NCBI GenBank assembly: GCA_963691705.1
Contig: OY829541.1
Coordinates: 15,308,564-15,372,563, forward strand
Source: Viola odorata
Taxonomy: Eukaryota; Streptophyta; Magnoliopsida; Malpighiales; Violaceae
Length of the DNA: 64,000 bases
Direction of reading: 5' to 3'
The translations under genes were made by a program, and so were the position numbers. The first letter of the stretch is position 1; every line of letters starts with the position of its first letter. This document shows positions 22,075 through 48,466 of the stretch, piece by piece. The notes under the pieces are model-generated. The model was not told the DNA's origin and searched no databases. It was given only the letters and a program-made list of their open reading frames with translations.

Positions 22075-23755
22075 TGATATGATGTATTTTGTCCATATTT
22101 TCTCTTCCTTTCCTAACCCTTTTCGGATCCTGATGCTACTGATTAGCCTCTATTTCTTTACTTATTGCAGATTCAGGCTTTAGGAGAGGAAATTCCAGAA
22201 AGATGCATTATTCACTAGATTTTGGAGTGTTTCGAGCGTCTAGGCCTAGCAGCTCATCGCTCGTAGGCCAGCTACAGAAAATGAAAAGTACGAAAAAGGA
22301 AATTTAATAAATCCGACTGATTCTCCGACTTTCCCTTCGTGTTCCCAGCTCAGCAAAGGCATAATTAAGGAAAACCTAGTTCTATTAGACTTAGGACTTC
22401 TATTTTATTTAATATATATATATTAGAATAATTAGGGTTTTAGGAGGGGGTCTCTCTCTTCCGCCTCTTCTCTTCTCTCCCCCCTCTCTTCTTCTTCTTC
22501 ATCTTCTGTTATTTTTATATTTACTATTTTATTTATGCTTTCTTTGTGGAACTAATTTCGATTTCCTAGTAAAGACAAGTGAAGGTTTTTGATTCATTCG
22601 ACTGTGAGATCTGATTGTGCTTAATATATTTCTGTTCTTGTATTTATTTATTTATTATTTAAACGTCAATATTGCTTGTGCTTGATTTATGATCTGATCA
22701 GTCTGCATCTCGCCCTTGCTGTTTATCGTCATCTCTATAGTTATAACTAACCCGAAGTTGTAGGGTAAAGTAAACAACTAGTCCATTCAGCTGGAATAAA
22801 TAAGTAATTAGGGTAGTGCCTCGAGCGTACTGAGTATCTCGCCCTAGACGTGTCTTACCTCCTCTTCATGGGCATATGAGTATTGTCTCCATAAGCGTAC
22901 CTTGGAGGACGACAGATTGTCAAGGTTACCCTATAAGCGTACCTTGGTGTAGCTTCTCTTACGAAGGTAAGCAGGGGACCTAAGCCTACCTGGTCCCCAT
23001 AGCATGTCTACAAGTCAGGAATTGAATATTGTCGAATCTATGATCTGTTGAATTGAAATCATAACTGGATATTTGTCATTGCTAGGAAAGCTTTCTCTCT
23101 ATTGATTTCTTACTTACTTTATTACTATTTGTTATTACTTTCTTAGTTTATATTAGATTAATCAACACTCTCAAAACCCCCATATTTGTTACTGTTTCGG
23201 TTTGTTTACCCTAGTCACACACGAAAGTCAGCGTCTACCCTTAGTCCCTGTGTTCGACCCTGCTGCCGCTATATACAATTTATTGTGCATTTGATAGCAA
23301 GTTTTTATTATTGTATTTGAATGTGCCTCGACAACCCAATCAAAATGGCGTCGTTTATGGGGTAGCTTCTCTTACGAAGGTAAGCAGGGGACCTAAGCGT
23401 ACCTGGTCCCCATAGCACGTCTACAATTTAGGAATTGAATATTGCCGAATCTATGATCTGTCGAATTCAAATCATAACTGGATATTTTTCTTTGCTAGGA
23501 AAGCTTTCTCTCTATTGATTTCTTACTTACTTTATTACTATTTGTTATTACTTTCTTAGTTTATATTAGATTAATCAACACTCTCAAAACCCCCATATTT
23601 GTTACTGTTTCGGTTTCTTTGCCCTAGTCACACACGAAAGTCAGCGTCTACCCTTAGTCCCTGTGTTCGACCCTGCTGCCGCTATATACAATTTATTGTG
23701 CATTTGATAGCAGGTTTTTATTATTATATTTGAATGTGCCTCGACAACCCAATCA
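22075..23755 (+). repeat. 5' LTR with partial internal duplication
   Basis: The LTR sequence reaches a first terminus at 23342 (CAATCA), followed by AAATGGCGTCGTT, i.e. the beginning of the PBS. Then about 400 bp of LTR 3' sequence (from TAGCTTCTCTTACGAAGG, as at 22950) is repeated up to a second terminus at 23755. Compared with the 3' LTR, the region after the first three bases seems to lack roughly 700 bp. Confidence 0.8.
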
Positions 23756-23758
23756 AAA

Positions 23759-23778
23759 TGGCGTCGTTGCCGGGGACT
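23759..23778 (+). promoter_or_regulatory. Primer binding site
   Basis: TGGCGTCGTTGCCGGGGACT three bases after the LTR end; close to the tRNA-Asp-type PBS of Athila-like elements (recalled, not checked). Confidence 0.75.
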
Positions 23779-23807
23779 AACGGTACTGATTTCTTTCTTT
23801 TGTTTAT

Positions 23808-25264
23808 GTGAATAGGACATGTAGACCACTTGAGCTCGAGATCACCAGAATAGAGAGCAGACTTAGAAGACAGGCCAAGAAACCACCCACTAACACCGGA
23901 GAAGTTTCTGCCCCAGTCCTTGAAAGAACCCTCTCTGCCTTGGACAATCTTGACATTCTTTCTTCATCAAGACCTAGACGCTGGATGCATCATTTCTTTC
24001 TTTAATGTCTTATTTTAATTATTTTTCTCACTCATCCTCTTTTCCTCAGTATTTTGATGCAGGCAGGAATGTGACTGCCAATGGAGGATTCTATGGCTCG
24101 CCACAGGGGAGTTTTGATTCGTATTATGATTCATATACATCTCACGGTCCGCCGCAGGAATGTTATGACCCATACTACAATCCCTATGCATCTACTCCTA
24201 ACCCCCCGTGGTGGAAGCAAGGAAATTTCAACTATGGAGTGCAGCCCGAACCTAGTTATCAATATTTTCTGCCTCCACAACCTCCACAACCTCCACAAGA
24301 TGCAGGGCTGACCCAAGAAGATTTGGTGATACTAGCTGACATAGCTAGTCAACTTAAAGAGCTAACCACAACCATGCAGGAGATTAGGGAGCAAGATCGC
24401 CAAGAGGCCATTGAAGCAAACTTTGCGTGCCTACCTGAGCAGCTTGCCCCTGACGCTGAACCACATGAACCTACCCAGCTTGCCCTAGATGTTGTCCCAA
24501 CGCTTGAACCAAAACTTTTAGCTCCAACACTTCTGCCCAATCAGACCATGAATCACCCTATCACTCCTATAGAACAATATTTGCAACACTTAGATGGTGA
24601 CGACCATTTAAGTGAAGAGGAGAATTTGTCCACCGCCATTCTATTGGAGTCATTCCATGCGCATCATGACCAAGATGATGAGTCTTATGGGATAGAGGAC
24701 CTTTTCATGTCAACAGATGAGCTAAAATTGGAGGATCCAGGATGCTTTCCTTTCGAGCCAGAAGCCAACATGGAGTTCAAGGCCAGTGCAGACACAATAT
24801 TGAGCAACACAAATCTGCCAGATTTTTGCGATGATCGTCTTGCCCTAGAAGCAGAATTAGAGGCAGAAGTCGTTGTTCAGCCAAATCCGCCAAATGAACT
24901 CCAGAACTATTCTAACACTTTAGTGAGCCAAGGGATTATGGTTTTGGAGGCTTTTCACCGCATCAAGCCGAGGGAAATTAAGGATGATGATTTAAAAGAG
25001 ATTGAAGAAGAAATAATTGAGGACATGAGCTCCAAAGCCGTTATGTGTGACAAGGGGATTCTTAAACTTTTTGATTATATTGATCCTTTCCTTGAATCAC
25101 CTTTCACTCATAAAATTTTTTTCCTCTTTGTTTTGCAGGAACCCAAATTAAGATTTGAATCATATCATGGTTGCCTGCAAGATGCTCTGCTAGAAGACCA
25201 TCCACTTTACGCTATAATTCATATCAAACTAAAGGGATGGAAAGCATTTAGTAGAATTGGTTGA
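23808..25264 (+). CDS. Gag-like protein of the non-autonomous element
   Basis: Two overlapping frames. The first (23808-24005) reads TRIESRLRRQAKKPPTNTG-like basic sequence; its TAA overlaps the ATG of the second in TAATG (24003-24007). The second, 419 codons, begins MSYFNYFSHSSSFPQYF and is rich in Tyr, Pro and Gln (YDSYTSHGPPQECYDPYY; PPQPPQPPQ), with a helical segment LVILADIASQLKELTTTMQE and an acidic middle. It ends with SYHGCLQDALLEDHPLYA. Position after the PBS and composition suggest a structural, gag-like protein, but no zinc knuckle or retrotransposon gag core is evident, so function is inferred. The frame change could be a mutation. Confidence 0.6.
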
Positions 25265-26180
25265 CAGAAGCCTGAACAGCTAGCGTCTTGCCCTAGACGT
25301 TAACTGAGGTGCTCTGTGGGAGGCAACCCACATTTCTTCCCTCCTTTCTCTTTATTTTACCTTGATTATTATTTTATCTTTATTATTATTTTATTTTCGT
25401 ATGCCCTTGTTCGAGTTCCCTCTTCGGATTGAGGACAATGCGTTGCTTAAGTGTGGGGAGGGACACTTATGTGTTTGTTTTATTTTGGGCAATTTTTTTG
25501 ATTTTTTAGGATTTTGTGAACTTTGGTTTTCTGGAAATTACCTTTTGCTAAGCTTGCACTACCCCTGTTTTGAAAATCACCTTAGATGGAATGTACAGAA
25601 TATGCCCACTATACACAGACACTTCACCTACTGCACCAGAATGACTTGCACACCATACTGCCTGTTAGCTCTTATGACTATGTCTTGCCCTAGTTGCTTG
25701 CAATCAATGTTTCTTACCCTGTGAGTGTTTGAGCTTCCATGCTGAATTTTATTTCTGAGTGGATGCATGATTGTGTGCTGGCTGAATTTGCATGAGACCC
25801 CTAGGTATAGGCACCATTAGACGTGAGAAAGTGATGATGTGATTGGAAACTTTACACCTTTCTTTCTTATCTTTTTTCTTGCCTTTTATCTTCCCGCCCT
25901 TACTGCTCACCTCTTTTTCTCCACCTTTCTAACTACTTGAGCCTTTCCTTTCATTTCTTAGCATGTGAGAGATGTCCTCTGGCAGTGAGCAAAGCGAGAT
26001 AAAGAGAAACAACATCACTTCTGTGGGGGTATTGAGCTGCAGGATACAGAAGCTGAAAACAGAAACACATGCTGAGAACAAAATACAACATCCACCCGCT
26101 AGACCAAGATGCTGAAAGTAGTAGTATGGCAAGCAATTGTAGAATGCAAAAGAGAAATAACAAAGGGTCTAGTGTGGGGA
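25265..26180 (+). other. 3' internal region of the LTR element
   Basis: Non-coding. It contains the conserved purine-rich motif at 25428-25463 and ends with AGTGTGGGGA (26171-26180), a polypurine-tract-like sequence directly before TGACAG. ORFs at 25362-25724 and 25929-26163 are not credible genes. Confidence 0.6.
26171..26180 (+). promoter_or_regulatory. Polypurine-tract candidate
   Basis: AGTGTGGGGA followed at once by TGACAG. The element at 43116-48690 has the same core (AGTGTGGGGATGTT) directly before its LTR, which supports an LTR start at 26181. Confidence 0.55.
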
Positions 26181-28179
26181 TGACAGACGGCCTGATCTAG
26201 GAGATCAAATCAAACCATTCAACGAACAATATGGAAATCAAGAGCTCGGGCGAGACATTGACAGTAATTATTCATTAAAGTTCAGACGCCCGAAGAAAAT
26301 TTTGCTACTCCAGTTCAACAGACCAAAACAATTGTATATCCTCCCTTTTGCTCAAAGTCTTTCATAAAAAAAACATAATAAAAAAAAAAAAAAATTTAAA
26401 ATTTTAAAAATTCGAATAAAACATTTGAGCAAAAGAGGAGTACAGATCCGAAGTGGAGCAAAGCATGAAGAAGATCAAAGGACCAACGACAATTTCAGAA
26501 GAAGATAATACCCCCACTCTCCACCAGCGCTCTTTGTCTTGTCCTTGCTGCTACCACCAGGAGGCCCTCTCACCACTTTGCCTTCTTCCATCTAAGAAAA
26601 CCTCTATCCTTCATTCTCTCTCTTTCGAACCCTCTTCTTCAACATATTCTCTTGCTTTACCCTTGCAAAGTTTCTATGATTGTATGATTTCCCACACATG
26701 TGTACTACGTACCCGGGTCGCTATTGCAAATCTGATTGTGTGCATTGTCATTCACATCATTGAGCGTAAACACCTAACTCTATTTCTGAGCGTGAGTGAC
26801 AAATACATTATCCGGTAAGGATTGCTTGCAGCAGGCTGATGTAGGAAAGCTTCTCTTCTAGTTTCGTTATTCCTTAAGAGTAGTGCAGAGTTCATGTATT
26901 TTGTCCACATTTTCTCTTCCTTTCCTAGCCCTTTACGGATCTTGATGCTACTGATTAGCCTCTATTTCTTTACTTATTGCAGATTCAGGCTTTAGGAGAG
27001 GAAATTCCAGAAAGATGCATTATTCACTGGATTTTGGAGTGTTTCGAGCGTCTAGGCCTAGCTGCTCATCGCTCGCAGGCCAGCTGCAGAAAATGGAAAG
27101 TACGGAAAATGAAATTTAATAAATCCGACTGATTCTCCGACTTTCCCTCCGTGTTCCCAGCTCAGCAAAGGCATAATTAAGGAAAACCTAGTTCTATTAG
27201 ACTTAGGACTTCTATTTTATTTAATATATATATTAGAATAATTAGGGTTTTAGGAGGGGGGCTCTCTCTTCCGCCTCTTCTCTTCTCTCCCCCCTCTCTT
27301 CTTCTTCTTCTTCATCTTCTGTTATTTTTATATTTACTATTTTATTTATGCTTTCTTTGTGGAACTAATTTCGATTTCCTAGTAAAGACAAGTGAAGGTT
27401 TTTGATTCATTCGACTGTGAGATCTGATTGTGCTTAATATATTTATGTGCTTGTATTTATTTATTTATTATTTAAACGTCAATATTGCTTGTGCTTGATT
27501 TATGATCTGATCAGTCTGCATGTCGCCCTTGCTGTTTACCGTCATCTCTATGGTTATAACTAACGCGAAGCTGTAGGGTAAAGTAGACAACCAGTCTGGA
27601 AGTAATCGGGTTCCTGGTCTCATTCAGCTGGAATAAATAAGTAATTAGGGTAGTGCCTCGAGCGTACTGAGTGTCTCGCCCTAGACGTGTCTTACCTCCT
27701 CTTCATGGGCATCTGAGTATTGTCTCCATAATCGTACCTTGGAGGACGGCAGATTGTCAAGGTTACCCCATAAGCGTACCTTGGGGCAGCTTCTCTTACG
27801 AAGGTAAGCAGGGGACCTATGCGTACCTGGTCCCCATAGCACGTCTACAAGTCAGGAATTGAATATTGTCGAATCTATGATCTGTCGAATTGAAATCATA
27901 ACTGGATATTTGTCTTTGCTAGGAAAGCTTTCGCTCTATTGATTTCTTACTTGCTTTATTACTATTTGTTATTACTTTCTTAGTTTATATTAGATTAATC
28001 AACACTTTCAAAACCCCCATATTTGTTACTGTTTCGGTTTGTTTGCCCTAATGACACATGAAAGTCAGCATCTACCATTAGTCCCTGTGTTCGACCCTAC
28101 TGCCGCTATATACAATTTATTGTGCATTTGATAGCAGGTTTTTATTATTATATTTGAATGTGCTTCGACAACACAATCA
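26181..28179 (+). repeat. 3' LTR of the Athila-like element
   Basis: From about 26894 the sequence is nearly identical to 22083 onward; the end CAATCA is shared. The upstream ~700 bp have no counterpart in the 5' LTR. If the LTR starts at 26181 the 5' LTR carries a deletion; alternatively the LTR starts at 26884. A 29-bp segment near 27592 is absent from the 5' LTR. Confidence 0.7.
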
Positions 28180-30077: not shown

Positions 30078-30350
30078 TCCGGTGTACCTGCAAAGCGCCG
30101 GAGGGGGGCTCCAGCATAGACACTCCGATGCTTAAGTCAGTATGGCTATTCCAAATGGCAGGGGTTCAACTAGTAATCATAGGCTTACCTCTCATCTTAA
30201 ATGGTCGGGTATTTATAAGCGCAAAGGCGAGTGTTACCTCTAGGGGGTGGGCGTTATCTAGGCAAGATAACGCCTTGGGTAACGTCATGGCTAACCTGTG
30301 ATGGGATAACGCCGTGCGCGTGGGTAGATAATGCATGAGTCCCCCCCCCC
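30078..30350 (-). repeat. Inverted LTR fragment of a Tat-like element
   Basis: Reverse complement matches the LTR at about 38160-38455, including the TATAAAT box (30217-30211), the TAACGCC blocks and the CGGCGC...TTGCAGG end, which stops at about 30078 (U5 truncated). It marks the 3' end of a minus-oriented element whose antisense genes follow to the right. An 18-C run lies at 30341-30358. Confidence 0.78.
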
Positions 30351-30646
30351 CCCCCCCCACGCTGATGTCGACCATCCTAGGGTTCCTCGTTTGGTGAAGG
30401 GTGCCATCTTCGGTGAGGCATGCCCGACTGGAGCTACAGTAATCCGGCCTTGTCGCTGAGTGTAAAGACGGCAATGCCCCTAGAATTGCCTCTATTGTTA
30501 TCACAAGCCCAACTGAAAATGAGCCCGAGTGTTTCCCAAGGGCTAATGCTTTCTCTTGTTTCTGTGTCATGCCTGACGGTCCTCAAGATAACGGGGTGGC
30601 TCGGTTTTTAAAGGGCACATCTTCTCAACCACACTTTCTTTGGGCC

Positions 30647-30653
30647 TATAAAT
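30647..30653 (+). promoter_or_regulatory. TATA box of the first antisense gene
   Basis: TATAAAT, 64 bp before the ATG at 30711. A plausible plant core promoter for the small gene that follows. Confidence 0.5.
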
Positions 30654-30710
30654 TTGAACTTTCATCGCGCAAATTTCGCATCTTTTTAGCACTTTTTCGG
30701 TATTTTCATC

Positions 30711-31094
30711 ATGGATGAGCTGACTAGAAACTTCTTGATCTCCAAGGCCCACACTCTGAAGAATCTTACTGAGGCTGACATTGGTTTCCTGGAGACCATG
30801 ATGACCAAGACCTCCGAGGACATCTTGAAGCTTCAGGGGATGATGACCTCTCTTCTGTCCAGGCAGCTTGCAACTTCCCTGGAGGACTTCAGCCCTTTGG
30901 AGAGCATGCTGAAGCTGGCCACTACCGTTTCCCACATCGAGGTGGTCACCACCATGCTGCGGTGCAAGAAGGACCTGCTGATGTGTTGCTTAAAGGGGAT
31001 GAGGGTTTGCTCCTCCGAACTGACCTCTATTGTAGATGCTCTGAGGGAGATTGCCGTGGTGCCAAGGGAGGACGACGCTGGGTCCACTGTCTAA
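30711..31094 (+). CDS. Small antisense-cassette gene, unknown function
   Basis: 127-residue frame starting MDELTRNFLISKAHTL. Composition is leucine-, methionine- and acid-rich with a repeating helical look (EDILKLQGMMTSLL; FSPLESMLKLATTV). No known domain, signal peptide or membrane segment is visible. A TATA box stands 64 bp upstream, and AATAAATAAA polyadenylation-like signals follow at about 31182. It lies in the plus orientation between an inverted LTR fragment and three further plus-strand genes, so it is antisense to the host element. The G+C-rich third positions and absence of stops suggest it was recently coding. I do not recognise it. Confidence 0.55.
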   Translation: MDELTRNFLISKAHTLKNLTEADIGFLETMMTKTSEDILKLQGMMTSLLSRQLATSLEDFSPLESMLKLATTVSHIEVVTTMLRCKKDLLMCCLKGMRVCSSELTSIVDALREIAVVPREDDAGSTV

Positions 31095-31630
31095 CTACTC
31101 GCCACTGTCATCGTGTCCCTTTGTTTTTCTTTTTGTGTTATGATGTATGCACGCGGGTGTATGTTTGGGCCGTTAGGCCATAAATAAATAAAGTGTCTTT
31201 TCACTATCTTGCTTGTGACTTCTTTTCTTTCTCGATATGCTTATTAGTGTTTTAGTTGAGTGCCACATCAGCCCAACTGAAAATGAGTCTGCCATTGGTT
31301 GGACTTCTGCTTCGCTTGTTTTTCCTCACTCACCAGGTGGCGACGATTATGCTTGTGAACCGTTCCGCATTAATTTCGCGTCGTTTCTTCAGTGTCAACT
31401 GATTGGGCGGTTTTTTGGTGTCTCTTGATTGGCGAAAAATCCTAACAGGTGTGATCATAGAATCAGATTCTGCAATTATAACCATTTTTCCTAAAGCGCA
31501 TTGATTTCTCTTAGAGGGCGTGCAAAAAGGTGGGGAGGCCTCTTCGCTTTGAGTATTTAATGGAAGTTTCTCTTCTTTTTCCTGTTCATCTTCTTCTTTG
31601 CATTTTCCTACTGAGATTGCTTACGATTTT

Positions 31631-32050
31631 ATGGTTGATTCATATTCCATGGATGTTGCTGAACGTGATTCTCTACCGACTCCTCCGACTTCACCAGACT
31701 CTGACGACCCTCCTCCTCCGTGCCTGAAAAGACGACCTTCCCGACGCAAGGGTTGTAAGAGGCCGAAGAGGAAGACCTTTGAGGCAACCAACGTGCCTTT
31801 CGACCTCCATGTCCCTACTATTCGGAAGGGCGATGAGTTGTTTCCTCACATTAGTCGTTTCATGGAAAGAGGTTCCTCTAACGATATCGGTGCTGAGATA
31901 GTGGCTTTCGCCACTAAGGGGGAGTCAAGTTCTTCAACGCCTAGTCACGAGAAAAGGGTTGACGAGCCTTTCCCTTTTACTAACGAGGAGTGGCCGTCTT
32001 CGGATGGAGATGACTTCTACTGGCCTTCCTACTGGCTTGACGAGGATTAA
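31631..32050 (+). CDS. Small antisense-cassette gene with basic stretch
   Basis: 139 residues from ATG 31631 (MVDSYSMDVAERDSLP). A proline-rich N-terminus (PPTSPDSDDPPPP) precedes a strongly basic segment RRPSRRKGCKRPKRK that looks like a nuclear localisation signal; the C-terminus is acidic and aromatic (FYWPSYWLDED). No known domain. A TATTTAAT element at 31553 and an AATAAAATAA signal at about 32097 frame it. An 18-bp sequence upstream (31270-31287) is identical to one upstream of the preceding gene. It probably encodes a nuclear or RNA/DNA-binding accessory protein of the retroelement, but this is inference only. Confidence 0.55.
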   Translation: MVDSYSMDVAERDSLPTPPTSPDSDDPPPPCLKRRPSRRKGCKRPKRKTFEATNVPFDLHVPTIRKGDELFPHISRFMERGSSNDIGAEIVAFATKGESSSSTPSHEKRVDEPFPFTNEEWPSSDGDDFYWPSYWLDED

Positions 32051-32531
32051 TCCCTATGCATCATGCATGTTGTAGATATCGTATGGCTTTTTTATGAATA
32101 AAATAATGCTCCCCGTTTTCGCTTTCTTGTCGTTACACTCTTGCGATAACTCTACAATCATTGGGCAGTTGACGCTGAGCAACTAGTTACCACTTTGATA
32201 CAACCGTTTCTTCAACTTCCAATTGTTAACCACCTTCCTCTAAGGATATAAATGCTTAGCCATAAATATTCTTCTGATGTCTTTCCATGTGTCCCTTTCT
32301 GTGTTATACGTGTCTCGTTTTCATAGGTTACTCAGTCACTGAGTTTGACCTTTAAAAGAAAATAACTCTCCTCTTCTCACACTTACTCGCGCTTCAAATT
32401 TTTCTCTGCTTCTTCTTTTGTTCGAGGAAAGCTTCTCCCACAGTTCGTCGGCACCGACGGTCTACTTATTACTTTCTTCTTCAAGGTATTTTGCTCCTCT
32501 TTCGTTTTGGTTTTTCTTTTACTGGTTCGCT

Positions 32532-34637
32532 ATGCGTAAGACTAGAGCTACCAGGGGTTTTCAGAGACCTTTAGATCCAGCGATCGAAAAAACACACAGT
32601 ATTTTTTCGTGCCCGACGGTTCTAAGGGCCGAATTAGAGGGTCATGGTATCTCTTTTCTCCATGGCTATTCCACTATCGTCCCCGATGATGGTCTACTAC
32701 TTCACGATCCACTGTGGGGAAAATATAGACTGGTTTACTTTAAAATGTTCCTTTATGGCTTTTGTTTTCCCATTCATACTTCTGTAGAAAAACTGTTGCG
32801 CTAGTATGATCTTAACCCTGCTCAAATAACTCCTTCTTCTTGGTGTGGGATTTATGCCTTTCTTTATGCTTGCGAGACGAAGGGTATCTTTACTCCGTCC
32901 GTCATTTTAATCTGCAAATTCTTCAGCCTAAATTGTCTCAACTACTTAGTCAATATCGGCCCAAGGTAGAATGACGCGTTTGTGCAGTCGTTCTGGCAGA
33001 AGTTTCAGGGCTTTGAGGAGACTGTGGCTGATTGGAATAGCAGTTTCTTTATTCTTGAACTGCCTTCCCGTTTGTGGCGCGGGGGCTTTAATCGAGAGAT
33101 CACTAGTGCTGCTTGGGTAAATCCAGTAGTGTTGTCTAGGGATGAGTTGGCTCATGCTAACACCTTGTTAGAGATAGATACGTCTTTCCGTATTCGGGAA
33201 TTCGCTTTGATTTTCTTGCTGTTCTGACATATTTCATTGGCAGAAAATGCTGAGGGTCAATCACCTGGAGGGAATGACGCTCCTTTGAATATGGCGCCAC
33301 TCCAGATGCTACCAGCTTCTCCACCACCTAGGGGTTCCAGCCATCAGAGTTCTTCGCCGAAGAGGAGGAGGACTAAAACAGTAGCAAGGAGAGGGCGCGG
33401 TATTCCTGCTCGAGCCTCTCATTTTCTTGACAATTGGTTACCGGTTTGGGGCAGAGGAGTAACTTTGGGTCGACCCGTAACTAGGATAACTGACAGCGAT
33501 AGCGAGGATATGGATACCGAGACAGAGCTTCGCCATGCTTCCGCGACTCAACGGAAGAAACTCAGAATGAAGAAGTATGGTTAGGCTACTGGGATTTTTT
33601 CAAAAAAGGTTGACGAAGTCCCTCCTATGAGGGTTGACGTTTCCACTGTGGCAAGTACTTTTCAAGTGACAAAGGTTACTGAGGCGTCAACTTTCATTCC
33701 TCTAACGGTTACTGAAGCTCCGCTGACAACGGATTCGCTTTCACCGACTAACGCCCCCGACTCTCCCATTTCCTCCTGCATACCTGACGTGGTGGTGCCA
33801 GCTCCCAGCTCAAGCGCACTTCCCGTCCCTCCGACAGGGGGTCCTCAACCGTTATTCTTTACTTCCATTTTGGGTATCGACGGTCCTATCAAGAGTTCCA
33901 CTCCCTCTATTATCGCCAACGTTTCCCCTCAGGGTCCTCAAGGGGTTCCTTCTTACCGGTTGGATTTGTCCACTTTTGGCACTAGCGGGCTTTGTGCCTT
34001 AGGGGTGTCGGACCCGTTATCACGAGATCAACCGACGACCTTCCTGGTATGTGAGATATTTAGCTCACCTGAGGTTAAAGAGTTGCTACGACTTCCTCCC
34101 GATATTCAGCACGCGCACGTTCTGAACGATGCCCTGGCCGGCTTTCGCAAAGTGCATTACTTTCTTAAGGCTCATGGTGACAAGCTTCGAGGTTCACCCG
34201 ACTCAAAAGAGCGACTGGATGTCACCTTGACTAAAGTGAAGGAGTTAACGTGACTTCAGAATCGTACCTTGGCGGAGCTGAACGATTGCCGCGCTGAACT
34301 TGCAAGGGAAAGATCTAAAGGGAAAGCCAAAGTTGAGTTTTTAGAGGCGGAGTTGGTGGCAGCTGACAAGAAAAATTCTCTTCTTTCTAAAGAGATACTG
34401 GCTTGCAATGCGGATTTAGCAAAGGTTTCGTCGAAGATACGCTGGTGGAAGAAAAAGACTATGTGGGCCTTTACTGCCGGATTCGCGGACTACTATCGCG
34501 GTAGGACTTTCGATCCTACTAAGATAGTCGATTATGCCTATGAAAAAATGAACGAGATAGACGAGAGCAAAGAAGGTTTTCTTTCTTCAGGAGAGGAAGA
34601 GGGGGGTGACGGCGGCAATACCGAGGCGCTCCCGTAA
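32532..34637 (+). pseudogene. Antisense gene A (gypsy-type transposon family), degraded
   Basis: Exon 1 starts at ATG 32532 (MRKTRATRGF); an intron ends in TTTCATTGGCAG (AG 33240-33241); exon 2 runs to TAA 34637. Exon 1 has the pattern of the plant family called 'putative gypsy type transposon' (Transposase_28/PF04195-like): FKMFLYGFCFPIH, DLNPAQITPSSWCG, ADWNSSFFILELP. Exon 2 begins with a basic stretch (PKRRRTKTVARRGRG), a low-complexity Pro/Thr/Ser region, then a coiled coil (LARERSKGKAKVEFLEAELV) and a C-terminal WWKKKTMWAFTAGFADYY. In-frame stops at 32802, 32967, 33582 and 34251 show decay. It is paralogous to gene B downstream. Function is unknown; the basic stretch suggests nuclear action. 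Confidence 0.75.
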
Positions 34638-35158
34638 TTAGATGGTGTTGATGCCGCAAGGGACGTTAAAGACTCCATTCGTCTTTGTTAATTGCTATTC
34701 TTTTTTACTTCAAACATTGATGCACTTCAGTTTGTAACAATTAATGACTTCAGTTTGTAACAATTAATGACGCCTTCCTTGTAATAACGTATAGAATTCT
34801 CCTTTAAATAACGATTGATGTTTGTCGCGTTATCCCTTTTCTTTGCATTATCTTGACAGCTACTAGTGGAGTTAACGCTGCGTCGCGTTATTGCGCCTGT
34901 CTTGGTTTGAAAATTGACTCCACTTTTCAAAGCATTTAATGCTTGAGATTTCCTTATTAATGCGAGAGGAGAGTCATGATGGCTAGAATACACGTGTTTG
35001 TTCGTGGGGGCGCTAGGGGTTGGCGTGCCCTAGGAATTGGTGAGATCGAAGCGTCTTCTCGCTTCTCGAGAATCATACTCATTGGTTGCGTCTTTTCTTT
35101 GTAACGCGTCACACACGCGACGACTGTTACAACAGTCATTTTGTCTGACTGCTAGGGT
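34638..35158 (+). other. Spacer between antisense genes A and B
   Basis: No gene. It contains a direct repeat of CTTCAGTTTGTAACAATTAA (34726 and 34750) and ends in the gene B promoter. Confidence 0.6.
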
Positions 35159-35165
35159 TATAAAA
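35159..35165 (+). promoter_or_regulatory. Gene B promoter: telo-box-like TAGGGTTATAAAA
   Basis: TATAAAA preceded by CTAGGGTT, 174 bp before the ATG. The second copy of gene B has TTTAGGGTTATATATAA at the same place (61786-61771, minus strand), so the TAGGGTTATA core is conserved between copies. Confidence 0.6.
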
Positions 35166-35332
35166 CCCAACACATGATTCATTTTTCCCTCTTTTGTCAT
35201 TCTATTTTCTCTTCACCTTCTCGAGCCGACTGGTGTTCTTCTTTCCATCATATGGGCGTTCTGAGTTTCTCTCCCAGAAAGGTATTTCTATCCTCATCTG
35301 TCATCTTCTTCATCTTTTCTTTATTTTTTGCC

Positions 35333-37520
35333 ATGGCTAGAAGTCGCCGTTCTCGACCCAAGTCTGTTGATGAGGAAAAAAATGAGAATATTGCTACCAC
35401 CATCACCTCCTTAGCCATACTTCAAGAGCATTTAACTAAACACAATGCCCATATTCCCGAGGATTTGACGGTTTTCGTTGCCTCTGATTCAATGCGTCTT
35501 AATAGTGTATTACCCGACAAGAGTAGGCTTTTGTATGCCAAGATGTTTGGCTACAGTTTTCAATTTCCTCTCAATTCTTTTATTGAAAGCTTGTTTGTTG
35601 CTCTGGATGTGAATCCTGTTCAGTTAACTCCCAACACGTACTGTTGTGTTTACGCGTTTCTAGAACTCTGTAAATTCAAAGGGATTACCTCTCCTTCCCT
35701 TTTATTACTTAAATCGCTTTTTCAATTGTATAGCCGTAGGGGTGTGATAGCGATATCGCCCCGTTATGACGATGACTCGCTTAAACCCTTCACCTGGAAG
35801 CTCCTGCACCTTAAGTCTTCCATTGAAGATTGGAAAAATGAATTTTTTGTCAATGAACTGCCTATCCCTCGGTGGCGGACCGGTTTTAATCGCAATATCC
35901 GGGATAGTGCCTGGGGTCAACGGGGGGTTCTTCCTTCACCTGAGCAAGGCTGGTTAGACAAACTGCTCGAATTGGACATCAGCGTTCACACTCGCCACCT
36001 GCCGTGCGGGACTGATATTCGAGCCTGTGTTGAAAGTGAGTGTTGTGCCATTTCCTTTGTAATTTCAGGCGATACTAACGCTGACGTTATATCGTGATTG
36101 TGCAGTTCCTGGGCCTGGTTGGAAGCCTGAAAGCGTTAGGAGATGGGAGAGAAGGGCTCTAAAAAGAAAGGAGATAGAGGAAATTGCTGCCATTGTCGCC
36201 GCGGTTGCTAATCCAGTCGTTCCACCCACTACGACTGTAAATCCTGTCCAAGCGTCTTCTTCTCCGGTCGGTGAGGGAACTAGCACTATTCCCGTTTCTA
36301 TTCCGGCTGTATCCGTTGTTGTCGCTTCTACTCAGGCGTCTTCTTCCCGGGTTCCCACAAAAAGAAAAAAGAAGAAGACAAGACGCGTTGCCGCCCTTAC
36401 CCCACCTTCGAACGCGACAGCTTCTTCGGAGGTGTCGATTAGCGATATTGCCATTGTAGACATTTCTTTTGTGATTGTGTTATCTCGACCATTGCTTCTT
36501 AACGCTCTTTAGTATTTCCTTTTGATTTCTTACCCTTTCTCAATGTTTCTTTCTGCAGAATACCACTGTTGCCTCTGCCCACTTGTTGCGAACAAACAAC
36601 ATGGACCTGACCCATGTGTTTCGACATCCTGACAAGAGACCGCGACATGACGGGGAAAACGCGAACTTATCAACGGGCCCCGTTATTAATGAAGGGGGAA
36701 ATGTTACCGTTTTTGCTTCGATGACGCCTTCCAACGGTCAATCTTCTAACCCTTTGGGAGCTGTGGGAGTTTCTGAGTCCTTTGATGCTTCACCCAATTC
36801 CTTCGGCTCATCACTTCATCCTTCCTTCTCCCACGTCATGGGCTTTAATGAGGACTTAACGGGGGCCGGTTTTCCAACCTTTCAATCTCATGGCTCCTTT
36901 GGGCTTCACGGGGGCACTTCCTCTAGTCAACCTCCATCTCCAACTACTCTGTTTTTTGTTCTCTCCAATGCCTCGATGTATAGGCCTGGTGGGGTTATTG
37001 CGCCCCATCTCATGGCTGATTTGAGTTCGATGGAGTCTGGTCCCGTTACTCATCAACTTGACTTGAGTAATCTGCGCAGATCTGGATTCGCGGCTGTTGG
37101 GGGCGACAGTTCCACCGCGGTTTCTTCTTTCCTAGCTGCTTATGAGTTATCATCCCCTGAGGAGGCATTTCTTTCTCGGCCCGCTGACGAGCAAATAGGC
37201 TCAGTGCGTGCCACCTTGTTCTCTTCTTTCTCCCAGTTCCACTACTGGGCCCAGCATATGTCACACAAGGTTGTCTCTCTTACCTCTACCTCAGACGGGC
37301 TTTATGTCGCTCATCGTCAGCTTTCCGAAGAGCTTACAAAGGAGCAAGAAGAAAGGAAGAAACTGTCAGGGGAATGTCAAAAGTTGGTACGAGCCTTAGC
37401 GATGGCCAAGAAGGACTTGAAGGATGCTAGAGAGCAGGAGGCCGTTAGGGTGTCTGATCTTGACGCTGCTCTGACAGCAGAAAAAGCTAAGAGTGTCGCC
37501 ACTGTGGTTGTCCTTTTTCA
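35333..37520 (+). pseudogene. Antisense gene B (gypsy-type transposon family), 3'-cut
   Basis: Exon 1 35333-36035: MARSRRSRPKSVDEEKN, then LTVFVASDSMRLNS, KMFGYSFQFPLNSF, DVNPVQLTPNTYC, FQLYSRRGVIAISPRYDDDS and EDWKNEFFVNELP, a good likeness to the plant 'putative gypsy type transposon' domain. Intron 36036-36105 (GTGAGT...TGTGCAG), phase 1. Exon 2 reads PGPGWKPESVRRWERRALKRK and a later KRKKKKTRR basic motif. A second intron ends in TTCTGCAG (36558), and exon 3 carries a Ser/Pro/Gly-rich region and a coiled coil (EELTKEQEERKKLSGECQKL). Similarity stops near 37520, 28 bp before an LTR, so the C-terminus is missing. Exon 1 has no internal stop. Confidence 0.78.
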
Positions 37521-37548
37521 CGCTGTCCCTCTTTTCTTCGATCTCCCA

Positions 37549-38525
37549 TGATAAGATAGTAGCATCAGTGTTACCGTGATGATGCTGATAATAAGCCTAA
37601 GTGTCGCTTGCAAGGCTGCTATCATATAGTCCATAGAATCATAGATGCTGATGACGGACATTATGCAGGACGTCGCGACATGACTTAATCACGCACATTT
37701 CATTGTCGAGGTAGAATAACGTCACTTAGCAGATAGCTCCAGAAATAGATCTCATAGGAGTAAATTATCATAGACAATATTACCCACGATGCATAGCACA
37801 TAACCTGCTGTCGCGAGAGAAGAAGATGTGGTGCTATAACCATGTATGTCTTCAAACCGGCGGTATCCTTCCAGAGGCGTTACAGCCTCGAACACTACTA
37901 TTGTCTCCGTCGAAGAGATAACTCAATCTATAAGATGTCATCCAGGATGAGTATCTTCATAATGATACCGCACTAATCGTAAATATTCTCGATCAGTGGC
38001 GAAGAATTCCATATAGATGCGGACGTATCACTTTTCCGTAGGAATAGCTGTCAATGAGATATAACACATACGTTCTCCTGATGGTATTTCTCTGATAACA
38101 ATAGAGACAATTTCAGGGTTGTTATCGTCCTTACAATCGGCGTTGAGGACGGAACCTTGTAGCCTCTAGTCTCACGCGTCATCTATCCACACGCATGGTG
38201 TTATCCCATCCCAAGTCAGCCATGACGTCACTTGAAGCTATCGTCCATGACGTCACTCGAAGCGTTATCTTCCCTAGATAACGCCTACCCTCTAGAGGTA
38301 ACGCCCTCGCTTGACCTATAAATACCCCACCATTCGAAACACAAGGTAAGCCTAAGATCACTACTGGAACCCCTACCATTTTGAACAACCACACTAACTT
38401 AAGCATCAGAGTGTCTACGCCGAAGCCCCCCCTCCGGCGCCTTGCAGGCACACTCGACGGCAACTACAGTGACTCCAAGCAGCCCTAATCCTCACCCCGA
38501 TCATCCAGAACTTCGAATCTTATCA
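37549..38525 (+). repeat. 5' LTR, copy 1
   Basis: 977 bp, beginning TGATAAGA and ending TCTTATCA, an exact 8-bp inverted terminus. TATAAATA lies at 38317-38324. The part 38160-38455 is present inverted at 30078-30350. Confidence 0.8.
38317..38324 (+). promoter_or_regulatory. LTR TATA box
   Basis: TATAAATA within the LTR; also conserved in the inverted LTR fragment (30217-30211). Confidence 0.6.
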
Positions 38526-38528
38526 AAC

Positions 38529-38548
38529 TGGTGCTTTCATTGAGAGCC
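38529..38548 (+). promoter_or_regulatory. Primer binding site
   Basis: TGGTGCTTTCATTGAGAGCC three bases after the LTR end. The tRNA it pairs with was not determined; the placement is that of a PBS. Confidence 0.6.
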
Positions 38549-38612
38549 TTAGTTTATTAAGTGAGCATCCTTAATAGCCAGGCTCCGTTTTTCCAGGAAG
38601 ATCGGAACGATC

Positions 38613-40405
38613 ATGGCTTCTGATTTGGAGTCCACGCGACCTTCATCCTCTAACATTCCTTTTGCGATCCGTAGACAACTATTTCCTTTCGCCACTACTG
38701 ACGATTCTACTACGATGCAGGAAATTACCTGGGAATCTTCAGATCTCTCCTTTATGTCAGTAGGAGGAACGCCTTCCTCCCAGATGAACATCTCTCTATC
38801 CTAGATGGCGGGATCTAGTTTTTGTACTCCACCTCCGAGGGGATTCATGCTGAACAGCGTAAGCAACCCCCTCGTGAGTGAAATATCTGCCCTTCATGCT
38901 CAGCTGGATTATTTGACCGAGCTGGCTGCAAGGATTACACCAGATGCTTCTAGGTCGAGTGTTCCTCCCCAGGTTATTTTCACATAATCTATTGTCACCA
39001 AACGACCCTTATCGCCTCTGCAACACGGAAATATTCCGTCGGCCTTGCCCGCGACAGATACACCAATTAGCCTTGTGCAACTCGCTCAGGGGCGAGTGGA
39101 GCCTTACGTGCCACAAGTGCCATAAATTCCCATCTCTCAAGGAGAAAGACGGCTTGATGAGTACATAGATCGTTGGGACGGTCGACGAGAAGAAGTGGAT
39201 AGAAATATATCCCCTAAACGCAGTGAGAGATCTAGTAGTAGAAGACACCGAACCCGCTCGCCAAGAAGCCGCAGCCAGTCTCCAAGGCGACATCACACTC
39301 TAGATCCACGAAATCGGAAGCGTCTCCCCCTCGCCATACACGTGAAATCCTTGACGACACCTCAAGTCACCCATTCAGCCATCGTATAAGGCGTCACAGG
39401 GTCAGCCAACACGTGAAACTACCCACAGAGTCCTATGATGGTACCAGAGATCCCGTTTCTCACCTTAACAAGGTGAAAGACTTTATACAATTTCAGACCC
39501 ACAACTATGTAGCTTTGTGCCAAATATTTGTCATGACATTGTCAGGAGTTGCACGCCTCTGGTTTGAAGGTCTCCCTGGCGGATCTATTGACAGTTTCTC
39601 GCAGCTGGAGTGTAAATTTCGAAGCCGATTCAGTACCGCGGTCCCCATTAGGAAATCTGCTGCAGCATTATTCGATATACACCGAAAACCTCAGGAATCT
39701 TTGAAGGATTTGCTTAGTCGCTTCGATATGGAGATGTCGTTAATGTCGGGTGTTACCATTGATTTCGCTATAGAAGCCTTGAAGCAAAACTGCCGCTATG
39801 GGAAATTGAGAGACACGTTAATGGTGGACCCCCCGGTGATTTTGGACGCATTAAGGCTGAAAGCCCATAATTATGCAAGGAGGGAAGAAGAGGAAAATAG
39901 GGACAGAACTCGAAATGTGCCACCAGATGCGTCTCAAGTCCCAAACGCTCCTACCACCACAACTTCTGAGGATCGTTTTATCGACGATTACGCTCAGCGA
40001 AAAGATCATATTCCTAAGACCTCCAATCAGCGACGAGGCAACTTTTCGAGGGGAAAGTCTGGCAACTCCCCGATGCGGCGACAGGGGGATCCTCCCAAGG
40101 GCCGGGTGTATGACCCGGACCTTCCTTCCCTCATTTTACCAAGAGCGGAAATATTAGCGATTGTGGAACAGCGGAACCTACCTATTCATTACCCAGCCCC
40201 CGTGAAGCCTGGAGTAGTCATGGGAGGAAGGGAAAATGCCTTTTGTAAGTTTCACAAAGTTAAGGGACACTCTACGGAAGTATGCAGAGAATTAAAGCTA
40301 GCGATAGAACGTCTAGTAGAGGAAGGTTATCTCGGAAAATTTGCCACTAAGACAAGAGAGGAAGCCAGGAATAACCCCACGAATAGAGCGAATGATAACA
40401 GATAA
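38613..40405 (+). pseudogene. Gag, Tat-like copy 1
   Basis: N-terminus from ATG 38613 (MASDLESTRPSSSN) continues in one frame with stops at 38802, 38986, 39123 and about 39387, then shifts to the frame of the core near 39410. The N-terminal part ends in an Arg/Ser-rich stretch (SSSRRHRTRSPRSRSQSPRR). The core is of the Retrotrans_gag type: LPTESYDGTRDPVSHLNKVK, QIFVMTLSGVARLWFEGLP, FRSRFSTAVPIRKSA, PQESLKDLLSRFDMEM. A single knuckle-like CKFHKVKGHSTEVC lies near 40236. The product would form the retroelement particle. A TAA at 40403 separates it from protease in the same frame. Confidence 0.88.
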
Positions 40406-41118
40406 GAACCTCCTTACGCTCCAGAAAATAACGCTACTTCTTCTAGGAGAGGTAGGGAAACACTCATGGTTGATGACAACGATATCCCTATCATCAACAT
40501 CATAGCCGGAGGCACGCCCTACCTAGATGAACCCGCACATTTGACGCCCGCGGCAGGAGATAAGCAGAAGGGGGAGGGCGCGGTAATAAAAAATAAAGCA
40601 ATAAGCGCCTTAGATCGAATGGTGTTATCATTTTCCGAAGAGGACGAGAAAGGTGTTATTTATCCACACAATGATGTGTTAGTGGTCACACCCGTTATCA
40701 CTAATCACGGAGCCAGAAGAACTCTCATTGACAATGGAAGTGCTATGAACTTATTTTCATTGGAAGCCTACAACCTTATGAAGCACCCCGATAACGAGTT
40801 AACGCCTTGCAAGAAGCCAATAATTGGAGTAGATGGAGTCCCAATCCCAGTGACTGGGGTAACCACCCTGCCAGTATACTTTAGAGATGATACCTCCAAG
40901 CGGTCAGAGGAGCTGCTATTCCTGGTCGTGGACCTAAATCTGCCCTATAATGCTATACTTGGACAAACTTTCCTCAACCGCTTCGGAGTAGCGATATCCC
41001 CGAAGCATTTGAGAATGAAATATCGCTCCTGGGATTGGGTGGTCTCAATCAAAGGTAATCAGAAATTGGCGGCTGAGTGTTACCTACTCATGACTCAGAA
41101 GAGTTGTGATAGGTACGT
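40406..41118 (+). pseudogene. Aspartic protease, Tat-like copy 1
   Basis: Same frame as gag after one TAA. Active-site motif RTLIDNGSAMNLFSL (D-N-G-S in place of the usual D-S/T-G), flap-like region and AILGQTFLNRFGVAISP near the end. It would cleave the polyprotein. The frame runs out in a GTGTGTGT tract at 41115-41126; slippage there accounts for the loss of phase with RT. Confidence 0.85.
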
Positions 41119-43115
41119 GTGTGTGTAACGGTAGATCCGTACGAACAGAATGATGAGAAACACACTCAGCCCGTAGACAAGATGATACCCGTGCTAGTTA
41201 ACGGGACCGGCGAAGTGAGTTTCCTGGTTAGCAAAAAACTTAGCTCAGAAGAAAACCTTCAACTAGCTCAGCTGTTGAACAAATGTAAAGGAGAATTCGC
41301 ATGGAAGCCTACGGACATGCCAGGTATCTCACGAGAGGTAGCGGAACATCGACTCAATGTTGACCCCGGCATCAAGCCAGTCCAGCAGAAACTACACGCG
41401 TTTTCTGCTGACAAAGCGTTAGCCGTTGACAAAGAAGTGGCCAAGCTTCTAGACGCAGACTTTATCCGAGAAGTTCAATATCCAACCTGGTTAGCTAACC
41501 CGGTCCTCGTTCCAAAGCCCAACGGAGATTGGTGCATGTGCATCGATTTCACCGACTTGAATGATGTCTGTCCCAAAGATTGCTACCCGCTCCCTTGAAT
41601 TGATAAGTTAGTCGATCAGACTACCGGGTATGCTTATCTAAGCTCATTAGACGCCAACTCTGGGTACCATCAATCCCCATGGCCGTCGAGGATGAAGAAA
41701 AAACTACTTTCATCACTCCAAAAGCCACTTATTGCTACACAGCGATGCCGTTTAGGCTGAAGAACGCAGGAGCAACCTTCCAACGTATGGCGAACAAAAT
41801 ATTCAAAAAGCAAATTGGAAAGAACGTAGAGGCCTACGTTGACGACATACTAGTCAAGAGCCGAATCTTCCAGGAACACTTGCTCGACCTGAAAGAAGTT
41901 TTTGATGTAATGAGAGAATACCAAACTGAACCCCCGTAAATGCATGTTTGCATTTCAAACGGGTAAATTTTTAAGCTATGTGGTCAGCCAGAAGGGTATC
42001 CAGCCCAATCTCTCGAAAGTCAAGGCTATGCAGGACATGATATCTCCTCGAACCGTCAAAGAGGTACAAAAACTAACAGGGCATGTTATCACCCTAGGAC
42101 GGTTCATCTCCAAGCAGGGTGAGAGGTGCCTCCCTTTTTTCAAGGTCATACGCAAAAAAGCTCCTTTCGGGTGGACAACGGAATGCGAAGAGGCGTTTAT
42201 GGGCCTAAAAACTTATTTATCGTCTGACTTAGTGTTAACAAGGCCTGAACTGGGAGATACCTTGTATTTATACCTTGGTGTTGCCGATGAAGTGGTTAGT
42301 GTTGTCCTTGTGCGAGACGACAACCATCTGCACTACCCGGTGTATTTCGTAAGTCATGTTTTGAAAGATGCCGAGCTGCGATATTATCGCATCGAGAAAG
42401 TAGCATTTGCACTGGTGCAAGCCACGAGGAAAATGGATAGATATTTCCAAGCTCATCCCGTCATCGTACTCATGAATCAACCTTTGAAAAGGATATTCAG
42501 GAAACCCGAATCTTCAAGGAGAATGCTGATTTGGGCTATTGAACTTGAGCAATATAGGTTGCGATATAAATCCTGACCATCTGTGAAAGCCCAAGTTTTA
42601 GCAGACTTTAGAGTTAAGTGCACCTTTACAGAAGATCCCCTGACAGATTTAGCCGAAGAGGAAAAAGATAACCTGGATCTCCCATTCCTGGAAACTTACA
42701 CTGACTTATGGGTCATCCACGTGGACGGGGCTAAGAATCAAGAATCAGCCGGAGCTGGGATCTTCATGATCGGACCGCGCGATATACATATACGATACGC
42801 CATTAGAATCCTACAGCCGTTATCTAATAATGCAGCAGAGTGTGAGGCACTATTGGCTGGACTTAGGATAGGAAGAAGCTTCTATGGTAAAGCCATACAC
42901 GATACGGGGATGATGGGAGACTTGCGACTAAAGATCTGTGGAGATTCCAAGTTGATAATAGATCAAGTCCTAGGACACTCCCAGGCCAGAGAACCCATCA
43001 TGGTGCAATACCTCGCCAAGGTAAAGCGTGAATTACTAGAAATAAAGAAAAGTGGCATGCAAGTCAGCTTTGAGCACATCCCTCGAGAGGATAACGCTGA
43101 GGCAGACAACCTTGC
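41119..43115 (+). pseudogene. Reverse transcriptase-RNase H, copy 1 (5' part)
   Basis: RT blocks in order: EHRLNVDPGIKP, ADFIREVQYPTWLANPVLVP, CIDFTDLNDVCPKD, GYAYLSSLDANSGYHQ, TPKATYCYTAMPFRLKNAG and the catalytic YVDDILVKS. Then RISKQGERCLPFF-like thumb and a first RNase H, followed by an archaeal-type RNase H with IHVDGAKNQESAGAG, NNAAECEALLAGL and GDSKLIIDQ. Disruptions: TGA at 41596, a one-base loss near 41671, TAA at 41937 with frame change, TGA at 42574. It ends within ADNLA at 43115, where an Athila-like element is inserted; the frame resumes at 48691. Confidence 0.88.
43111..43115. repeat. Target site duplication CTTGC (left)
   Basis: CTTGC before the LTR start TGATCG; repeated at 48691-48695 after the LTR end CTATCA. 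The host codons read on in phase across the duplication. Confidence 0.9.
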
Positions 43116-44744
43116 TGATCGTCAGTCAAATATACTTAAATTTATCCTGATGCCTAAATGCACAAATTAATGTGTATAGAGCAAGACAGGGTCGAACTGC
43201 AGAGATTGAAGGAATGAATTGCTAGTGAACAAGTATGACAAGGCAATATGCAACAGATCTAACCAAAGTAACAATAAAATGGGGGGTTTTATGTTGATTA
43301 ATAAATTAATCAACGCAGAGTAGGTGAGCTAACAAAACAGAATTGGAAAGTACTTATCTAGGGCACAAAAGTAAATCGTAATCCAGGGCAAGAGATGTAA
43401 ATTGTATTCCAGAGCAAGAGATGTAAACAGATCGAATGCAGGAAAAGTAATGAAAATGATATTAATCAAATAGGACGAGATCTCAGCGAAAGGTGCTCCC
43501 TTGGGTTGTTTTCTAGGCCGGCTAGTGATCGGTGCAGAGGTTTTCCAGACTCATGTGCAGATCTGCTATAGGGACCGCGTTTCCACACCGCATCCCCTGC
43601 TTACCTTCGTAGATAAAAGTCACCCCCCGTTTCCACATATGAGGTGACCTTGACGTTCAGCCATCCTCCCAGCTACCTTCCTTATCATCAAAAGGTAGCC
43701 TTGACCGTCCGGCCTGTCACGGGCTCGAAGTAGGGAGGCTAAATATAGAACGCCCATGAAGGAGAGGTAAGACAGATCTAGGGCGCGATAGCTCAGCTTG
43801 TCAGACTCGTATCGCATACCCTAGATAACTGTTTACCCCTAGGTGAGGCCTCTCGCGCTGCCTCCCCTAGGTGTCTGCTCCAACTCCAGGGCTTCGCGTC
43901 AGTTATAACCCTGGAATATGACGTTACTCATGCAGAAATACTAAAATATGATCAAGCTCTTAACATTTCTAGACAAACATGGAATTAAATCGGTAAACAG
44001 TTATGTGTCACAAGAGAATATGTTAAGCATGCATTAGACCTCTTAGCCGAACCCTACAACCCGTGGAACACCCTTCACCAAGAAAGGGGTATTTAGCTAC
44101 TCATACTATAATATAAACACTAGGTAGATATAATCATGCAATGATAAACTAAAGAAAGTAAAAAGGGAGTAGAGTAAACCGGTAGATTAATTAATAATCG
44201 AAGAGGAAAGTTGTTGACAATGACTGCTCTTGATCGAGAAGAGGAGATGATCCCCAGAAAATAAATACTGAAACTAAAGTAAGAAATTATCGTTGGAACA
44301 GCCGTCCTTACAAAAACCCTAAAACTATGCTTATATAGCCTAAACTAGCTAGGAGACAAAAACAGCTAAGGGCAATGAGGGCGTGAAAACACATGTCCTT
44401 ACAAAAGGAATATTCTGGGATCCCTGACACGCCTGATGCCTTCTGGAAACGCCTGGGATTCCGTGCGGATCCCAGAAGATGCTTTCTTTGGAAGAAGGCT
44501 CAGAACTGTCGAGGCCTTGAGACAGCGCACTGGTCTAGTTCGCGTCGAGGTCTTGACAACATTCTTTCTTCTAGGCCTGGAAAATGGAAGTCCTCAGAAA
44601 TGCTCTAAAATCGCTTCTTTTCGGCCTTTTCCCTCCTTTGATGCTAATCTGCAAATAAGAGTGAAATGAGGGTCAAATGGTGACTTCGAGCCCCCGAAAG
44701 AGCTAGAAAAGAAGGTAAAATCATGACCATGAAACGTGCTATCA
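43116..44744 (-). repeat. 3' LTR of the Athila-like element
   Basis: 1629 bp; in minus orientation starts TGATAGCACG and ends GACTGACGATCA. Its first 224 bp match the 5' LTR remnant base for base except for a few changes. ORFs at 43620-43817 and 44393-44669 are not genes. Confidence 0.85.
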
Positions 44745-44758
44745 AACATCCCCACACT
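44745..44758 (-). promoter_or_regulatory. Polypurine tract
   Basis: AGTGTGGGGATGTT immediately upstream (minus strand) of the 3' LTR start TGATAG; primes plus-strand DNA synthesis in LTR elements. Confidence 0.75.
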
Positions 44759-48451: not shown

Positions 48452-48466
48452 TGATGGTGAGGGAAG

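Follow-up and report, generated by a model that had tools for sequence, protein, structure and literature searches.

Many plant retrotransposons of the Tat clade keep genes that are antisense to their own gag and pol, and the question of why they do so is raised in a concrete form by a stretch of 64,000 nucleotides from Viola odorata (assembly GCA_963691705.1, contig OY829541.1, positions 15,308,564 to 15,372,563 of the forward strand; hereafter, the window). On its plus strand, positions 30711–37500 hold a cassette of two small genes (small1 and small2) and two larger genes (A and B), all opposite to the gag-pol of the Ty3/gypsy element to which they belong. According to our analysis, the cassette is, with a probability of about 0.6, the accessory-gene region of a Retand-like family (Tat clade, Ty3/gypsy), the products of which are predicted to form a nuclear set regulating the expression of the element. 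With four antisense genes under selection and a conserved six-unit array beside them, the family provides this question with concrete candidate protein–target pairs.

Antisense cassette and the complete element

The element carrying the cassette lies on the minus strand and runs from a truncated long terminal repeat (LTR) at 30078 to position 38092. Its 3' LTR is preserved as a fragment (30078–30503, minus strand) recognized by an inverted match to the LTR sequence at 38171–38453 and by a match to the LTR of a related copy, L009; the inner end is at 30503, and the outer end is cut off. It is followed on the plus strand by small1 (30711–31094, 127 amino acids (aa)), small2 (31631–32050, 139 aa), gene A (32532–34638) and gene B, with exon 1 at 35333–36035, intron 1 at 36036–36105 and exons 2–3 at 36106–37499 (the second intron ends at about 36561, its donor being uncertain). 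The original prediction, made from the window sequence alone, had proposed an inverted LTR fragment followed by four plus-strand genes starting at 30711, 31631, 32532 and 35333; the fragment, both small open reading frames (ORFs) and the starts of A and B were all confirmed. The element of the cassette continues past the end of the region it had marked (37520), to 38092. Gene B has lost about 0.4 kb of its C-terminal part near 37500, relative to L009, L015, L020 and L021, and past this deletion the tail of the element (37503–38092, plus strand) is 93% identical over 470 bp to L020, the match ending at 38092. The description of A and B as two related spliced genes holds in that A is a paralogue of B and the B intron is conserved, but A is a pseudogene here (its in-frame stops rule it out as an intact gene in the window) and B is damaged at its C-terminus.

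To follow the cassette beyond the window, exon 1 of gene A was used as a query against the V. odorata genome. Forty places were scored; the window itself and five single-piece places of lower identity were left out, and the top 20 of the remaining 34 were fetched (loci numbered with L), so that all counts out of 20 refer to copies selected for their similarity to A. Small1 was present in 19 of the 20, and so was small2, always in the same order ahead of A. The LTR fragment stood before small1 in the orientation seen in the window in 16 copies, exon 1 of B (at least 620 nt) was present in 15, and the repeats that follow B (in L016, a shortened A) were found in six. In L016 a single stretch carries the LTR, small1, small2, A, the repeats and, on the other strand, the integrase. 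In L009 and the adjoining L029 the order is LTR, small1, small2, A, B and repeats, then integrase, reverse transcriptase (RT) and gag on the opposite strand, and finally the second LTR. This complete element is 15,398 bp long, with LTRs of 474 and 404 bp that are 92% alike over 383 aligned sites, and in this one element examined the 5-bp target-site duplication CATTA borders both LTRs. The layouts of L016 and of L009/L029 place the cassette in antisense orientation between integrase and 3' LTR, as the original prediction had held for the window and had proposed to check by a genome search for other such copies. The possibility that A and B are host genes lying beside an element was excluded by the presence of the same cassette inside a complete element and in many copies.

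The window contains a second copy of part of the cassette, within a plus-strand element (E3, 51155–62853). Behind its pol and repeats lie gene B' (59294–61609, minus strand, antisense to pol and degenerate) and the C-terminal part of gene A' (62386–62853, minus strand), which breaks off at the gag region of another element. The original prediction had relied on this copy for the agreement of order and strand; B' and A' are indeed there, but the copy ends short of where the small genes would lie. The window alone could therefore not tie the small genes to the element, whereas the genome copies do. A more distant subfamily (subfamily 2, read from the single locus L019/L030) also keeps the order small1, small2, A.

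The assignment of the element to the Tat lineage, likewise proposed before, is supported by the domain order RT, RT RNase H, RVT_3, integrase. In E2, the plus-strand element starting at 38093, RT_RNaseH lies at 41914–42573, RVT_3/RNase_H at 42577–43167 and the integrase zinc-binding domain at 48679, and the order of RT, the two RNase H domains and integrase is the same in E3. The second RNase H-like domain between RNase H and integrase is present according to Pfam matches and is putatively of the archaeal type. A feature that points to Retand is an antisense ORF with the Transposase_28 (TRP28, PF04195) domain between pol and the 3' LTR: against the Pfam cut-off of 26.2 bits, B' passes with 31.9 bits (E 1.6e-07), whereas exon 1 of B falls short with 23.5 bits (E 6.5e-05).

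Gene A gave no Pfam match in the three pieces scanned, and its kinship to B comes from direct alignment: exon 1 shows 36% identity over 216 aa (E 4.7e-43 within a small set), and the C-terminal halves align less strongly (E about 1e-6). On inspection by eye, both proteins have a charged tail resembling a coiled coil. In L027 (turned coordinates 6346–9187), exons 1–2 of B occur twice in tandem, which indicates that B can be duplicated within a single insertion.

Between pol and B lies an array of six repeat units with the core TCCTATCCTTGTG, located at 50147–50646 in E2 and at 58229–58734 in E3 (both plus strand). The spacing of the units is nearly equal: 92, 79, 80, 91 and 91 in E2; 86, 78, 78, 90 and 92 in E3; and 93, 79, 79, 91 and 93 in L016. 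Five units (79, 78, 91, 92) were found in L009 and one in its neighbour L029; L020, L022 and L026 end within or before the array. Since the integrase regions of E2 and E3 are only 74% alike, the number and spacing of the units must be old.

Antisense genes with TRP28 are an established hallmark of Retand elements, as reported in the accessible text of two surveys. The first (Vicient, 2025, PMC11963269) lists 104 antisense ORFs, 57 of them with TRP28, and finds antisense TRP28 ORFs in 97% of Retand clusters, all but two; the second (Neumann, 2019, PMC6317226) gives Transposase_28 in 23% of Retand elements. The precedent is thus stronger than the original prediction had stated when it noted antisense ORFs in the Tat lineage. 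Our family shares with the Retand elements, as characterized in the available parts of PMC11963269, one or more TRP28 ORFs lying in antisense between pol and 3' LTR, the long pol–3' LTR region and the tandem repeats often found by pol. It differs in having a diverged pair of TRP28 paralogues along with two small genes in antisense, in a pol–3' LTR region of about 8.6 kb in L009/L029, outside the range of 2.9–6.6 kb that the survey gives as a description and not as a definition, and in the array, which keeps its unit number and near-equal spacing across subfamilies, whereas the survey calls such arrays highly variable. The maize element Grande, as described in PMC7264820 in the portions available, resembles our family in carrying, between pol and 3' LTR, an accessory gene in antisense (gene23, with its own promoter and a nuclear product); compared by description only, it has one such gene, whereas four are present here. 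The set of two TRP28 paralogues, two small genes, an 8.6-kb (approximately) pol–3' LTR region and a six-unit array of conserved spacing appears to be new: no description of two TRP28 paralogues per element together with two small genes was found in the accessible survey text (PMC11963269) or in the open-licence literature searched. Small genes of this size would escape that survey, because, according to its available text, it took ORFs of at least 600 bp and shorter ones only if they carried TRP28; a 600-bp cut-off can in this way miss genes.

Coding potential, selection and sequence signals

Are the two small frames genes? Among 1000 simulated regions with the dinucleotide make-up of the cassette region, 73 had an ATG-initiated ORF of at least 127 aa, 43 had one of at least 139 aa, and only one had both. 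The codon usage of small1 and small2 is close to that of the other genes of the element (z of 5.5 and 5.7 versus base shuffles), with the caveat that the third frame of small1 also scores fairly high (0.16 versus 0.22). In the genome search, first-look candidates numbered 6670 for small1 and 5892 for small2, and the best 150 matches of each gene were scored. No internal stop was seen in 123 of the best 150 matches of small1 (counted by eye; best matches are biased toward intact copies). Many of the listed matches of small2 carry stops; they include a big group at about 66–75% identity, in which many frames of 141 aa are open. Neither small gene had a relative at E ≤ 1 in the protein collection, an absence that counts for little, because B itself found only three relatives there and the collection seems to be poor in plants. 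No relative of B was found in viral contigs or phage records. Profile matches of small1 in the PDB involved designed repeat proteins, over about 22 residues (best E 0.0019), and are considered chance similarities.

All four genes are under purifying selection at the amino-acid level (for B, in exon 1). In comparison with subfamily 2, dN/dS was 0.22 for small1, 0.25 for small2, and 0.15 and 0.17 for two parts of A; exon 1 of B gave 0.20 against B' of E3, and the C-terminal parts of A and B gave 0.21 and 0.22 against E3. The original prediction had suggested such a comparison across copies; the purifying selection that it required for A and B is seen in the values of 0.15–0.25 between subfamilies. 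These values are only approximate because dS is high (1.4–2.1; 3.2 for exon 3 of B), which does not affect the codon-position counts: the excess of third-position changes between subfamilies is significant for small1, small2, the parts of A and exon 1 of B (p from 6e-3 to 9e-8). Within the family, the observed pN/pS was compared with 300 column-permuted alignments. It was 0.39 versus 0.56 for small1 (1/300 permutations as low), 0.47 versus 0.63 for exon 1 of A (2/300), 0.46 versus 0.66 for the C-terminal part of A (0/300), 0.54 versus 0.72 for exon 1 of B (0/300) and 0.40 versus 0.70 for exon 3 of B (0/300); for small2 the signal was weak (0.53 versus 0.68, 15/300). Two noncoding controls were non-significant (0.49 versus 0.60, 39/300; 0.88 versus 0.75, 266/300). 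A within-family signal weaker than that between subfamilies is expected after insertion.

The first intron of B was compared in 14 copies: it reads GTGAGT..TACTAAC..AG in the window, with GT in 14/14, GTGAGT in 13/14, AG in 13/14 and the branch-site-like TACTAA in 14/14. In P0001–P0003, a read-through of this intron keeps the residues TNAD.

The original prediction had given each gene its own TATA box. The motif TATAWA occurs three times on the plus strand of 30600–37500, each time ahead of a gene: 65 nt before the ATG of small1 (30647–30652), at −286 of A (32247–32252) and at −175 of B (35159–35164). For small2 the claim fails, as only TATTTA precedes it, at −78. In subfamily 2 the TATA box of small1 lies at −68 and small2 is again preceded by TATTTA, and B' has TATATA at −171/−169. 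Alignment of the sequences upstream of B and B' gave a score of 68, versus 27 ± 4 (highest 42) among 200 shuffles. The poly(A)-like signals noted earlier for the small genes were found as AATAAA 91 nt past the stop of small1 and 49 nt past that of small2, the only ones in the 30600–37500 stretch; none occurs in the 355 nt examined past A. In E3, A' has AATAAA 22 nt on, and B' is without it.

A further signal is a 17-bp motif, GCCCAACTGAAAATGAG, with two exact plus-strand matches in the window, one just inside the 3' LTR (30507–30523) and one upstream of small2 (31271–31287). With up to three mismatches allowed, 0.24 matches are expected, and two were attained in 2 of 100 shuffles. If at most two substitutions are tolerated, the motif is present at both sites in 15 of the 20 copies, and it is also at both sites in subfamily 2 (L019, 6933 and 8366, with one mismatch in L019). 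A polypurine tract is not obvious by eye beside the 3' LTR, where it would be expected and where the first copy of the motif lies.

Regulation of the element and competing explanations

What could the four products do? The basic stretches that the original prediction had emphasized are marked in small2 (a 16-mer with 11 K/R; 0/1000 shuffles as basic) and in B (9/16 K/R; 2/1000), and less so in A (8/16 K/R; 29/1000, with introns included in the A span). The C-terminus of small2 has 8 acidic and 8 aromatic residues among 26, and both this tail and the basic stretch are kept in subfamily 2. Such a pairing of a basic stretch with an acidic, aromatic tail is reminiscent of transcriptional activators.

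These features suggest that the four products may work together in the nucleus. A and B, with the TRP28 domain, a basic stretch and a coiled-coil-like tail, would bind the DNA of the element, and the six-unit array between pol and B would be their natural candidate target. Small2 might be a small co-activator, and small1 might be a helical partner. Together, the four would keep up, or tune, the expression of the element despite silencing by the host. If this regulatory reading is true, such elements carry multi-protein control and stand nearer to a complex retrovirus than to a simple gag-pol element.

A more specific version can be proposed only tentatively and by analogy. The cassette could be a self-contained trans-acting control system, in which two DNA-binding TRP28 paralogues, a miniature activator joining a nuclear localization signal to an acidic domain (small2) and a helical partner work on a fixed six-site array beside pol; it would be a counterpart of VANC anti-silencing or of retroviral trans-activators. 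VANDALs, which encode the VANC proteins, are DNA transposons. In Arabidopsis, the targets of these anti-silencing proteins often form tandem repeats, according to the available text of PMC5735166, and the likeness to our family is one of logic, an element-encoded protein with tandem-repeat targets, represented here just by protein genes and the anatomy of an array. We put forward anti-silencing by TRP28 proteins as a hypothesis on this analogy. Among retroviruses, HBZ of human T-cell leukemia virus type 1 (HTLV-1), as covered in the accessible parts of PMC11963269 and PMC7264820, is likewise the nuclear product of an antisense gene of a retroelement; it differs in belonging to an animal retrovirus and in having its antisense promoter inside the 3' LTR.

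Several observations weigh against the regulatory reading. Small1 has no unusual basic stretch (its value is reached by 381/1000 shuffles), so that the earlier emphasis on basic stretches does not extend to it. The AlphaFold models of exon 1 of B and of small1 are poor (mean predicted local distance difference test scores of 43.5 and 49.5), and the sequence-based search gave no credible relative of known structure; DNA binding by TRP28 therefore rests on the published prediction (PMC11963269, in its available text). In 7 kb of L030, the one locus of subfamily 2, neither B nor pol was found, and its small genes have no AATAAA in the 200 and 150 nt examined. The repeat core was chosen after inspection, and the conservation of the array may be plain descent. 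Many copies are broken as well: with the window counted and rows below 85% coverage of a piece dropped, in-frame stops were absent from 16/18 rows for small1, 10/20 for small2, 5/21 for exon 1 of A, 2/18 for the C-terminal part of A and 6/16 for exon 1 of B, and stop counts were clearly under the permuted ones only for exon 3 of B (8/300).

The best surviving alternative is that the proteins serve the replication cycle after transcription, in nuclear import of the pre-integration complex, in particle assembly or in target choice. The basic stretches of small2, B and A are compatible with nuclear import, a role that the accessible text of a review discusses for antisense ORF proteins (PMC7264820). 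The separate antisense promoters, if real, suggest instead an expression uncoupled from gag-pol. Many other Ty3/gypsy elements manage without such genes, and we regard this alternative as possible but rather doubtful.

Antisense transcription may itself be the function, with cassette RNA pairing with the genomic RNA and limiting copy number through double-stranded RNA and small interfering RNA, the ORFs being incidental. All four genes are indeed antisense, and control by antisense RNA has been described in Ty1 and is under discussion for plant elements (PMC12786077, PMC7264820). An RNA-only role, however, needs no purifying selection on amino acids, no conservation of the B intron and no separate TATA boxes, which makes it improbable. 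That the genes are captured or decaying host fragments, hitch-hiking in one family with no function for the element, is very improbable indeed: the many broken copies would fit it, as would the lack of any relative of the two small genes in the protein collection, but the order small1, small2, A is equal in two subfamilies and in many copies, with dN/dS of 0.15–0.25.

Neighbouring elements in the window

The 5' LTR of E2 (38093–38525, plus strand) stands directly against the element carrying the cassette; it was delimited by its LTR ends and is followed by AACTGGTGCTTTCATTGAGAGC. The gag-pol of E2 (39242–50045, plus strand), recognized by Pfam matches to gag, RNase H domains and the integrase zinc-binding domain, is interrupted by a nested element at about 43170–48690; E2 fades out near 51000, and its 3' LTR is absent from the window. 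E3 begins inside RT at 51155, its 5' side being cut; its pol (51155–58136, plus strand; RT to integrase by Pfam domains) is interrupted at about 52800–56600, and the element stops inside A' near 62853, where the gag of a further element starts. As the cassette's element, E2, E3 and this further gag are all partial, the window consists of parts of at least four related elements, none of them complete.

The near-meeting ends of two L009 matches prompted the alternative that 38093–50996 is the element of the cassette itself, inverted in place. This was ruled out by the identity of E2 to L029 (83% in integrase, 82% in RT/RNase H, 79% in gag), while L016 and L029 are 91% alike, and by the matches of L015, L020 and L021, which run on to 38092, where the LTR starts.

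Within the pol of E2, a nested element at 44521–48690 has terminal direct repeats of 224 bp (97% alike) and, on the opposite strand, an ORF of 476 aa that matches ATHILA ORF-1 below the threshold (E 0.0041). At 22082–28179, direct repeats of about 1.29 kb (94%) enclose a region with an ORF of 428 aa that has no Pfam match, perhaps a non-autonomous LTR element; the first repeat is partly duplicated in tandem (413 bp, 96%). Another element remnant (433–7359, minus strand) encodes a DUF7745 protein (E 1.8e-24). Two genes of a different kind are a receptor-kinase-like gene at 20146–21951 (plus strand) with GUB_WAK_bind and protein kinase domains, and a kinase-like ORF, judged by eye, at 8443–8964 (minus strand). 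Within the DUF7745 remnant, tandem repeats of 186 bp (7.4 copies) occupy 3733–5097, and an inverted array of 183-bp units (6.2 copies) lies about 8 kb off at 13285–14437. Finally, about 18 copies of a 34-bp unit containing a GTGGCGGTTTAAACCCCACC-like sequence are located at 14756–15362.

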